Program-made: the position numbers and the translations under genes
Part shown: piece by piece, positions 23,164-50,346 of the stretch
How positions within the stretch are numbered: position 1 is the stretch's first letter
Layout of the letters: the number at the start of each line of letters is the position of its first letter
Notes under the pieces: model-generated
The model's database searches: none
Told to the model about the DNA's origin: nothing
Seen by the model: only the letters and a program-made list of their open reading frames with translations
Source of the DNA: Acidimicrobiia bacterium
Lineage (GTDB): Bacteria; Actinomycetota; Acidimicrobiia; Spongiisociales; ZC4RG35
Reading direction: 5' to 3'
Assembly (NCBI GenBank): GCA_028284765.1
Contig: JANQRA010000006.1
Coordinates: 1 to 64,000 of the forward strand
DNA: 64,000 nucleotides

Positions 23164-23197
23164 AAAGTGCCCCTCAGATGTCACTGAGGGGCACTTT
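23164..23197. terminator. 13-bp perfect hairpin between binding protein and permease genes
   Basis: AAAGTGCCCCTCA (23164-23176) and TGAGGGGCACTTT (23185-23197) pair perfectly around an 8-nt loop. On the minus strand it lies 25 nt after the stop of the binding-protein gene and 40 nt before the oppB-type start. Such intra-operon hairpins usually stabilise or attenuate, giving more binding protein than permease. The plus-strand side has a T-rich tail (CTTTTA). Confidence 0.75.
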
Positions 23198-42693: not shown

Positions 42694-43122
42694 ATGGCAC
42701 TCGAAAGCACTGGTCGCACCCACTGGGAAGGCGATCTCTTCAACGGTTCCGGCACAGCCAGCCTCGACAGTGGCGCCGCCGAGCCGATGAGGGTCACGTG
42801 GAAGGCCCGGTCCGAGGATCACGGTGGCCTGACCAGCCCAGAGGAGCTGATTGCGGCTGCTCACTCATCTTGCTACTCCATGGCGTTCTCCAACATTCTG
42901 GCCAAGAACGACACGCCGCCCACCGCTCTGGACGTCACCGCAACGGCCACGTTTGTGCCGGGGGAGGGCATCACCAAGATGGACCTCACGGTTGTGGGTC
43001 AGGTCGAAGGAATCTCTGGGGAGACTTTCGGAGAGCTCGCCGAGACCGCCAAGAACGGCTGCCCCGTTTCACAGGCCCTGGCTGGGAACGTAGAGATCAA
43101 CCTCGAGGCGTCACTGGGCTGA
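42694..43122 (+). CDS. OsmC family peroxiredoxin
   Basis: 142-residue OsmC/Ohr-fold thiol peroxidase. The two catalytic cysteines are in 'AHSSCYSMAFSNIL' (about 56) and 'NGCPVSQALAGNVEI' (about 123), the usual OsmC spacing, with an N-terminal 'GTASLDSGAAEP' strand. It reduces organic hydroperoxides. GAAAGG 6 nt upstream supports the ATG at 42694. It follows the DUF5667 gene by 48 nt and could be co-transcribed with the sigma factor operon, hinting at an oxidative stress link, which is inference. Confidence 0.93.
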   Translation: MALESTGRTHWEGDLFNGSGTASLDSGAAEPMRVTWKARSEDHGGLTSPEELIAAAHSSCYSMAFSNILAKNDTPPTALDVTATATFVPGEGITKMDLTVVGQVEGISGETFGELAETAKNGCPVSQALAGNVEINLEASLG

Positions 43123-43142
43123 TCTGCCAGGAGTTGTAGTCG

Positions 43143-43694
43143 CTAGGCCTCTTCGCTTTTTCGCGCCCGGTAGGCCGCCACGGCCTCGCGGGTCGAGCAG
43201 GTGTTTGAGCAGTGGCGGCGCGACTTGTTGCGCGACGTGTCGATGTAGACGTCCCTGCAGCTATCAGAGCAGCACATGCCAAATCGTTCGACACCATGTT
43301 CCACGATGACGCTGGCGAGGCCCATTGAAGTCACGGCGCCCAGCCACGAGACCATCGAGGAGTCGAGGGGTTCGAAGTGGAGGTGAGGCTCACCGCTGTG
43401 GGTCGAGACCCGGGGGGTTGCTCCGTACTCGGCCAACATGATGTTGACCCGCTTGGCTGCCAGATCCTCCTCGTCCGACCCGATCAACTCGCGGAGCGAC
43501 GATCTCAGCTGGTGGATGGCCTTCAAGTCGGAGGTTTTCGCCGGTTTGGCAGCACCCTCCCAGAGGTCCCGGTACTCATCCAGGAATTCGGTCATCTGTT
43601 CGACGGTGCTGAGCGAATCTTCTTTGATTCCCTCGGTGTTGACGAGGGAGACAGCCATTTCGACTGGTTTGGTTGTGTAATGAGAGAAATTCAT
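43143..43694 (-). CDS. CGNR zinc-finger (ABATE domain) regulator
   Basis: 183-residue putative transcriptional regulator. The N-terminal ABATE (stress-response ligand) domain covers about 1-125 ('AVSLVNTEGIKEDSLSTVEQMTEFL...LKAIHQLRSSLRELI'). The C-terminal zinc finger is 'FGMCCSDSCRDVYIDTSRNKSRRHCSNTCSTREAVAAYRAR': its position and the DTSRN helix are typical, but the motif that names the family reads CSTR rather than CGNR. It is divergent from a 45-residue reading frame; a palindrome between them could be its operator. Confidence 0.88.
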   Translation of the reverse strand: MNFSHYTTKPVEMAVSLVNTEGIKEDSLSTVEQMTEFLDEYRDLWEGAAKPAKTSDLKAIHQLRSSLRELIGSDEEDLAAKRVNIMLAEYGATPRVSTHSGEPHLHFEPLDSSMVSWLGAVTSMGLASVIVEHGVERFGMCCSDSCRDVYIDTSRNKSRRHCSNTCSTREAVAAYRARKSEEA

Positions 43695-43702
43695 TTGACT
43701 GG

Positions 43703-43718
43703 TTACACGAATGTGTTA
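43703..43718. promoter_or_regulatory. Imperfect palindrome in the CGNR/small-protein divergent region
   Basis: TTACAC-GAAT-GTGTTA (5 of 6 arm pairs) lies 9 nt upstream of the CGNR gene and overlaps a candidate plus-strand promoter (TTGACT 43695-43700, TACTGT 43718-43723, 17-nt spacer). It is a plausible operator for the CGNR protein acting on both directions. Confidence 0.4.
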
Positions 43719-43783
43719 CTGTAATAAGTGTAAGCAGAAATGGTTCTTACAGTCAAGAGCCGATTGAATAGGAAGGATATGCC

Positions 43784-43921
43784 ATGATCGACGTTGCAAA
43801 CGCGATACTCAACGAGCGTCGGCGCGAGGCATGCAGAGAGCGGCAGGCTCATGATCTGCCTCGTAGACGATCTTTGTCTGTGGGCCGATATAGGTTCACA
43901 ATGACAAGAGACGGCCGCTAG
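43784..43921 (+). CDS. 45-residue basic protein
   Basis: ATG at 43784 with GGAAGGA 6 nt upstream gives a 45-residue protein beginning 'MIDVANAILNERRREACRER', then basic residues ('LPRRRSL') and one Cys. It is helical and positively charged in its first half. I have seen short actinobacterial proteins of the kind 'xDLAxxLxxERRREA', but this is recollection. A good ribosome binding site and a plausible promoter at 43695-43723 support it as real; the small size keeps confidence moderate. Confidence 0.5.
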   Translation: MIDVANAILNERRREACRERQAHDLPRRRSLSVGRYRFTMTRDGR

Positions 43922-43994
43922 CGGTCGTACTTGGCGAATGGAAGGCTGACTCCCAGGTCAGAAATACGTACCCACGTTCCAGAAATTCGCGAGA

Positions 43995-44033
43995 AAAGGG
44001 CCGGTAGTCTGCCTCCATGACTACCGGCCCTTT
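43995..44033 (+). promoter_or_regulatory. 14-bp hairpin with a start codon in its loop
   Basis: AAAGGGCCGGTAGT (43995-44008) and ACTACCGGCCCTTT (44020-44033) pair perfectly. The 11-nt loop (44009-44019) ends with the ATG of the DUF1992 gene. The right arm is part of the coding sequence (codons 2-6). It could control translation of that gene, or act as a terminator for upstream transcription. Confidence 0.6.
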
Positions 44034-44250
44034 CAATTCTGGGGAGTCCACAGCCGATCGGCTGATCAGAGAGGCAATCGAATCAGGAGACTTTGACGAT
44101 CTGCCGGGCGTGGGGAAACCAATCCCTGGCGCCGGACAGCACGACGATGAGGGATGGTGGATAAGAGAATGGGTCAAACGCAATCGTGACCCTGAAGAGT
44201 CGAGCGGAGGTCCCGAAGCCCCACACCACGGGACCCCCGATCAGCTTTAG
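44017..44250 (+). CDS. DUF1992 (DnaJ-homologue-like) small protein
   Basis: 77 residues with the DUF1992 core 'ADRLIREAIESGDFDDLPGVGKPIPG', whose 'aIe.GefdnLpGaGKPl' pattern defines the family; function is unknown even though it is called DnaJ-like in databases. The rest ('WWIREWVKRNRDPEE') is also typical, but the protein is truncated relative to 100-200-residue members. The ATG sits in the loop of a perfect hairpin and there is no free Shine-Dalgarno. It is convergent with the next gene, overlapping by 4 nt. Confidence 0.82.
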   Translation: MTTGPFNSGESTADRLIREAIESGDFDDLPGVGKPIPGAGQHDDEGWWIREWVKRNRDPEESSGGPEAPHHGTPDQL

Positions 44251-44477
44251 CGGAGGCTTGCGTCTTCCCGTTCGATCTCCCGACCGAACTGACTTCTCTC
44301 CGCGGTCCCCGACAACCCCTCTGTGGCGTGAAAGCTCACGTGCCCACAGTCTTCGCAAACGGTTCTTTGAATCCCTGAGTTGGTCACCCCGACGCTTCTC
44401 GTATGGCTGCATCGCGCTTGGGCTGACCGCGCCCTCTTGGCAAACACTTTGAAATAGCCTCCCATGGCTTCGTACAC
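44247..44477 (-). CDS. Small zinc-site protein, paralogue 1
   Basis: 76 residues. The centre 'CSHTRSVGVTNSGIQRTVC' followed by 'EDCGHVSFH' gives a C-x-H ... C-x2-C-G-H-V-S-x-H pattern that should bind zinc. The same arrangement is seen in the divergent protein at 44637. A basic helix ('FKVFAKRARSAQAR') precedes it and a charged tail follows. Other frames over this stretch are longer but show no such similarity. The family is unknown to me. Confidence 0.6.
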   Translation of the reverse strand: MYEAMGGYFKVFAKRARSAQARCSHTRSVGVTNSGIQRTVCEDCGHVSFHATEGLSGTAERSQFGREIEREDASLR

Positions 44478-44636
44478 AACGAGTATGGAGGCGGCGGGGG
44501 CAGATTCCCATGAGTCGGGAGACTCACTCTGCGTGAGAAATTGTCACTATGTCTTGGTGGCGCGACCGCTCTCCGTGGGCTAGGTTTGACGTCAGGGAAA
44601 TCCTGTTGGGAGGCAGTGATTCGGAGGCGGAAGATC

Positions 44637-44969
44637 ATGGGGTGCAACCACAAGGACACGGTGACGACCGTGACAGCTGGTCTCGCCCGTCAAGTATGTG
44701 AAGCCTGCGGCCACGTGAGCGTTCACTACGTTGAGTCGGCAGTCCAGATCTATCCAAGCGCCGGCCCACTGATCGACCGTCCCGGCCCGCAAATCGATCT
44801 CACCAAGGTCGAAGCTCTTCAATCTTGTGATCTCTGCAGTCAACTCGCCTTGTACCGGGTCCCTGCAGGTCTCGTCTGCGACGAACATGCGTGGCAGGCT
44901 GCCGCTCGGATCAAATGGGACGAGTCCGAACCCTGGGTCCCGATCCGCATCGATCGATCCAACGCTTGA
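44637..44969 (+). CDS. Small zinc-site protein, paralogue 2
   Basis: 110 residues from the ATG at 44637 (GGAGG 9 nt upstream). Residues 3-30 form 'CNHKDTVTTVTAGLARQVC' plus 'EACGHVSVH', matching paralogue 1. A second cysteine pair 'SCDLCSQLALYRVPAGLVCDEHAW' (C-x2-C...C-x2-H) follows, so this protein likely holds two zinc sites. The C-terminus is acidic with Trp. Possibly a nucleic-acid or protein-binding zinc ribbon; no family recognised. Confidence 0.72.
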   Translation: MGCNHKDTVTTVTAGLARQVCEACGHVSVHYVESAVQIYPSAGPLIDRPGPQIDLTKVEALQSCDLCSQLALYRVPAGLVCDEHAWQAAARIKWDESEPWVPIRIDRSNA

Positions 44970-44995
44970 TCTGACGACGTTCAGCCCTTCCTGGG

Positions 44996-45001
44996 TATCG
45001 T
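44996..45001 (+). promoter_or_regulatory. Candidate -10 box of a leaderless promoter (mmsA)
   Basis: TATCGT ends 7 nt before the ATG at 45009 and no Shine-Dalgarno is present. Confidence 0.35.
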
Positions 45002-50302: not shown

Positions 50303-50346
50303 ACCTCAGGTTGTGGGCCCCATATGTGGCACCCACAACCTGAGGT
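50303..50346. promoter_or_regulatory. 15-bp hairpin / palindromic element between importer and hydrolase genes (copy 2)
   Basis: ACCTCAGGTTGTGGG (50303-50317) pairs perfectly with CCCACAACCTGAGGT (50332-50346), followed by a T-rich stretch. Its first 29 bases match copy 1 at 46512-46540 (25/29), including the inner CCCATAT palindrome. It could be a terminator after the binding protein, an operator in front of the hydrolase gene, or both. Confidence 0.65.

Follow-up and report, generated by a model that had tools for sequence, protein, structure and literature searches.

The locus analysed here raises the question of why a gene should begin inside a strong secondary structure. The start codon of a short DUF1992 gene lies at the loop of a perfect hairpin, and a preliminary description of this DNA had proposed that the structure either gates the translation of the gene or ends transcripts arriving from upstream. 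We examined the hairpin and its surroundings within the window, that is, the whole 64-kb stretch of DNA under analysis, and compared them with related loci.

A start codon at the loop of a perfect hairpin

The hairpin occupies positions 43995-44033, as originally located, and lies between two co-directional genes:

43143..43694, minus strand: divergent gene encoding an ABATE and a CGNR zinc-finger domain (domain matches), a putative regulator upstream of the small gene
43784..43921, plus strand: upstream small gene, 45 amino acids, core ERRREA...GRYRxTV, placed in tandem before DUF1992 in 10 of 24 loci of the family
43995..44009, plus strand: hairpin left arm, AAAGGGCCGGTAGTC, non-coding, predicted to be absent from the DUF1992 mRNA
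44010..44018, plus strand: hairpin loop, TGCCTCCAT, containing the A and T of the start codon
44019..44033, plus strand: hairpin right arm, GACTACCGGCCCTTT, from the G of the start codon as far as base 2 of codon 6
44017..44250, plus strand: short DUF1992/DJC28_CD (PF09350) gene, 77 amino acids, Pfam match with E 1.2e-12 over residues 13-55

We take PF09350 (DJC28_CD) to be the former DUF1992. The two arms are 100% complementary and form an inverted repeat around a 9-nt loop. The stem is as perfect as first described, with a length of 15 bp instead of 14, and its right arm, given earlier as codons 2-6, begins one base before codon 2 and stops one base short of the end of codon 6. The ATG (44017-44019) does lie at the end of the loop, its A and T being the final loop bases and its G forming the innermost stem pair.

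Folding of the 111-nt region yields -46.3 kcal/mol (z -4.38), a value that none of 200 shuffles equalled. The window contains three perfect inverted repeats of at least 14 bp (loop 3-20), this one among them, and the longest perfect repeat in ten first-order Markov shuffles of the window measured 12 bp. The hairpin is real and well above chance, a chance origin being ruled out by both the shuffled folds and the shuffled windows. The two other repeats, at 23164-23197 (14 bp) and 50303-50346 (15 bp), are terminator-like and lie 25 and 14 nt, respectively, behind stop codons. The two arms, allowed a spacing of 3-30 nt, occur together a single time in the 2.9-Mb genome, at this locus. A dispersed repeat is also ruled out, as the arms are paired nowhere else in the genome and the related palindrome GGTTATCCGG-N9/10-CCGGATAACC has a single occurrence in each of 4 among 34 family genomes, always upstream of DUF1992; this search listed no other genome from the genus to which the DNA belongs. 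Searching positions 43000-45000 with the covariance models of Rfam 15 gave no match above the gathering score and five weak ones; the best of these over the hairpin reached 23.2 bits, where the gathering score is 70.

The TAG at 44005-44007 closes the DUF1992 frame upstream, so that there is no earlier in-frame ATG, GTG or TTG. Inspection by eye of 43995-44019 revealed no Shine-Dalgarno sequence at the usual spacing before the ATG, in keeping with the earlier remark that none was free. In an alignment with 15 relatives the DUF1992 domain is well conserved and the first nine residues, encoded in the right-arm region, align in few of them, so that the right arm seems little constrained by the protein sequence. 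The small gene has no match in Pfam or NCBIfam.

A predicted leaderless promoter within the palindrome

Two further features could be assigned to the same few nucleotides:

44005..44010, plus strand: predicted promoter -10 box TAGTCT, preceded by CGG and ending 6 nt before the ATG (TANNNT as defined in PMC3160421 and PMC3898074)
44017, plus strand: predicted transcription start, identical with the A of the start codon (leaderless mRNA), from motif statistics

Leaderless genes with a TANNNT box about 12 bp before the start codon have been described in Actinobacteria (Zheng et al. 2011, PMC3160421; Cortes et al. 2013, PMC3898074), and in M. tuberculosis 26% of the genes that have a primary start are transcribed from the annotated start codon itself (Cortes et al. 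2013, PMC3898074). According to the latter study, 49% of TANNNT promoters have an SRN triplet before the box, CGN being the triplet in 45% of the cases, and the -35 region shows no conserved motif (PMC3898074). The DUF1992 locus fits this pattern. TAGTCT straddles the junction of left arm and loop, taking in the first loop base, starts 12 nt upstream of the ATG and is followed by GCCTCC and then the ATG; the CGG before it and the C-A-T at the start agree with what is published for actinobacterial leaderless genes, namely CGN before a box placed about 12 bp upstream, a purine at the start that is preceded by C and followed by T, and the lack of a Shine-Dalgarno sequence (PMC3160421, PMC3898074). 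No -35 box could be established at the DUF1992 promoter. Unlike the published leaderless genes, the box and the start codon fall here within a 15-bp palindrome, and the start is predicted from sequence.

Because the box ends 6 nt before the ATG, we infer that transcription starts at the ATG and leaves out the left arm. The arrangement recurs across the family: 19 of the 24 DUF1992 loci (all family genomes with a DUF1992 match) have TANNNT 6-8 nt upstream of an in-frame start, whereas the 59 motifs obtained by rearranging the two T and one A are found on average in 1.37 of the same loci and never in more than 7. The five loci without it are L013, L028, L029, L187 and L190. For the 19 loci fetched first the count is 16, and a scan of all spacers from 0 to 24 in these places 8, 3 and 5 loci at 6, 7 and 8 nt and at most two at any other spacer. 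Elsewhere in the same order, the layout is present in 1 of 11 loci from other families. Within the window, 9 of the 58 called genes have TANNNT 6-7 nt before their start (permuted motifs: mean 2.56, maximum 7). On these statistics the DUF1992 message is very probably leaderless, beginning at its ATG. The preliminary description had offered leaderless initiation past the left arm as one way in which the hairpin might gate translation; its leaderless part is well supported by TAGTCT and the 19 loci, and its gating part is not.

Recurrence of the hairpin behind a small upstream gene

Perfect hairpins of at least 10 bp beside the start were found in six of the 24 family loci (the window, L005, L006, L009, L013 and L016). 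All six belong to the 10 loci in which the small gene lies directly upstream in tandem on the same strand, against 0 of the 14 others (Fisher p 0.0016, a value to be taken as a guide only, the threshold having been set after looking and the loci being related). The remaining tandem loci carry less regular structures: L003 and L004 fold into imperfect hairpins with a GTG start at the loop, and L008 and L011 into weaker ones. Folding z-scores differ between the tandem and non-tandem groups (p 0.006, first 19 loci) and span -4.98 to +0.72 within the tandem group. The hairpin core begins shortly after the stop codon of the small gene in L005 (7 nt), L006 (10), L009 (9), L013 (11) and L016 (14), compared with 73 nt in the window. 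Where the hairpin exists, the two arms covary and the left one is conserved, as the check suggested in the preliminary description had envisaged; most DUF1992 loci examined have no such hairpin.

That most of the DUF1992 loci examined are without it also rules out a general feature of DUF1992 genes. Among the matches listed (at least 80), perfect repeats of at least 10 bp lie near DUF1992 in 7 of the 79 loci that could be placed (L068 was left out, the motif used for placing being absent from it): L036, L039, L073, L078, L086, L099 and L106. The hairpin sequences of L036 and L039 are those of L013 and L016, and the repeats of L078 and L099 lie inside the coding region. In Amycolatopsis arida (L073) a 17-bp perfect palindrome (CGTGATACG...CGTATCACG) is located about 60-100 nt upstream of the DUF1992 domain, possibly as an operator of another kind, and in Prauserella endophytica (L087) a shorter TGATAC..GTATCA repeat accompanies the DUF1992 gene. 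L012 has, by eye, a 16-bp perfect palindrome, GAGACGATATCGTCTC, across its predicted -10 box just before the DUF1992 start.

Strong matches to the small gene occur beside DUF1992 in 10 family genomes. Away from DUF1992, G029 has one more copy (L183), and weaker matches occur in G007 and G021. Of the five copies not beside DUF1992 in these three genomes, four were retrieved (L167, L168, L183 and L184) and the first three judged: the next 120 nt contain no strong repeat in L168 and L183 and a 9-bp repeat in L167. The idea that the small gene is always accompanied by such a hairpin is unsupported by these copies.

RNA structure or DNA operator

A palindrome of this kind could act as folded RNA or as a binding site in DNA, and the changes among relatives bear on the choice. 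The window and L005 share GGGCCGGTAG and CCTCCATG; compared with the 15 pairs of the window, L005 keeps 10 unchanged, alters two on both sides (A-U to C-G and A-U to U-A), turns one into G-U and loses two. Joint pairing of the two sequences amounts to 93% and drops to at most 47% of the cells when the partner is slid by 1-3 columns; the corresponding shuffle control (117/500) carries no information when two sequences are compared. In its best fold, L005 departs from the window-type pairing at its inner end. In L006, L009, L013 and L016 a 10-bp core is identical and the outer stem differs yet still pairs, with G-U pairs in L009 and L013 and a one-nucleotide bulge in L006 and L016. Arms and loop of these four relatives are more conserved than the flanking DNA, the core shared by L006 and L016 being 100% identical in 30-nt windows against mostly 60-90% nearby. 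The -10 box lies on the left-arm and loop side in the window and L005, and in the right arm in L006, L009 and L016. Given the compensatory and G-U changes, the bulge, the variable outer pairs and the shifting register of the -10 box, the data favour an RNA hairpin over a fixed DNA operator.

The opposite view would have a dimeric regulator bind both arms across the leaderless promoter and repress DUF1992. It draws on the fact that in five strong hairpins out of six the palindrome overlaps the predicted -10 box, on L013, where it overlaps a TAACCT 10 nt before the start, on the single occurrence of GGTTATCCGG-N9/10-CCGGATAACC upstream of DUF1992 in each of the four genomes that have it, on the palindrome being the best conserved patch around DUF1992 in the pairs compared, and on the putative regulator gene nearby. 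Against it, the register to the promoter varies among loci, and G-U pairs, a bulge and differing outer pairs suit RNA; moreover, none of the 14 family loci that lack the tandem small gene showed the palindrome. We consider this operator unlikely.

A probable terminator-like hairpin reaching into the next gene

Rho-independent (intrinsic) terminators consist of a GC-rich stem and a U-rich tract. The hairpin resembles them in its perfect, GC-rich stem, flanked by AAA on the 5' side and TTT on the 3' side, and in its place behind a co-directional gene. It differs in that the U-tract is weak, CAATTCT following the TTT, and that a U-run after the stem is absent in L005, L006, L009, L013 and L016; besides, the stem enters the codons of the next gene and the loop is conserved. 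A terminator scan, which admits loops of 3-8 nt only, returned none; the loop here has 9 nt.

The rest of the genome offers a comparison. In 397 kb of sampled sequence (the window and 18 further stretches) there are nine perfect hairpins of at least 12 bp; apart from the one studied here, five start 3-25 nt downstream of a called stop codon, two fall within called reading frames and one precedes a divergent start. One stretch of the same genome (L142:19380-19422) has the same layout, with a stop codon, a 13-bp hairpin, TACCCT and an ATG. Since five of the eight other hairpins sampled follow stop codons and L142 shares this architecture, a terminator-like role that insulates the upstream transcript appears the most economical reading. 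That the hairpin ends upstream transcripts, the second proposal of the preliminary description, fits its association with the small gene, and we judge it somewhat better than an even bet. Against this reading, arms and loop are more conserved than a plain terminator needs, and the distance to the stop codon of the small gene is 73 nt here instead of about 10. The weak U-tracts and the conservation of the CCTCC loop and the arms would also suit an operator or RNA-binding role.

A proposed role between two transcripts

Taken as a whole, we favour, with a probability of roughly 0.6, a terminator-like, insulating hairpin of the upstream transcript that is nested in the leaderless promoter of DUF1992. 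DUF1992 would be transcribed from its own promoter, with the -10 TAGTCT at the passage from left arm to loop and the start at the A of the ATG. Lacking the left arm, this leaderless mRNA would be unable to form the full hairpin, which would instead form in RNA arriving from the small gene (43784-43921) and end or stabilise the 3' end of its transcript. On read-through RNA the hairpin would hide the ATG, which no Shine-Dalgarno sequence is there to rescue, so that DUF1992 would be made solely from its own mRNA. Of this scheme, the hairpin, its recurrence between the two genes and the promoter-like motif are observed, and the start point, termination and masking are inferred from them.

Hairpins that mask start codons are known from RNA thermometers and attenuated leaders. 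Any read-through RNA would resemble them in holding the start codon within the hairpin; the predicted main mRNA differs from them in being devoid of the left arm, and there is no Shine-Dalgarno sequence to mask. A true gate of this type would require DUF1992 to be translated mainly from a longer mRNA, the hairpin being opened by a factor, by temperature or by the ribosome finishing the small gene. The tandem order of the two genes, the ATG at the loop in the window and L005, the GTG likewise placed in L003 and L004, and the stem extending to the A of the ATG in L006 and L016 are all compatible with it. Nevertheless, the -10 box that recurs 6-8 nt upstream of the start predicts an mRNA that lacks the left arm, there is no Shine-Dalgarno sequence to be released, and the start lies outside the stem in L009 and L013. 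Gating of DUF1992's own translation, as first proposed, is unlikely: the -10 box predicts a start at the ATG and, if this is right, the message begins past the left arm and beyond 44009, the point from which the preliminary description had regarded the idea as refuted.

The least probable alternative, and a highly improbable one, would make the hairpin the 3' end of a regulatory RNA derived from the small gene, whose C/U-rich CCTCC loop pairs with the Shine-Dalgarno regions of other mRNAs; CCTCC does stand between the arms of all six strong hairpins although the arms differ, and loop and arms are more conserved than their surroundings, yet in the window and L005 it lies between the -10 box and the ATG, where the promoter could explain it, the best fold of L005 pairs part of it, the loops of L003 and L004 lack it, and Rfam gave no match above the gathering score.

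A bolder version of these ideas, which we regard as quite improbable, is a two-way switch packed into 39 bp. Upstream RNA would fold into a hairpin that ends transcription and hides the start, the DNA would act as a leaderless promoter, and the conserved CCUCC loop would be recognised by a partner (the ribosome, a protein or a Shine-Dalgarno target), tying the small gene to the chaperone-like DUF1992 gene.

Literature searches that combined leaderless genes with terminators over start codons yielded, judged by the listings, general transcriptome studies, and nothing for the narrowest combination. If the nested, terminator-like hairpin is the correct explanation, the tightly packed genes of this Acidimicrobiia-like genome may be separated in this way, the leaderless layout letting a terminator-like hairpin enter the first codons of the next gene with translation unhindered. 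In leaderless-rich genomes, a hairpin at a start codon should not be taken for a translation gate until the transcription start has been determined.
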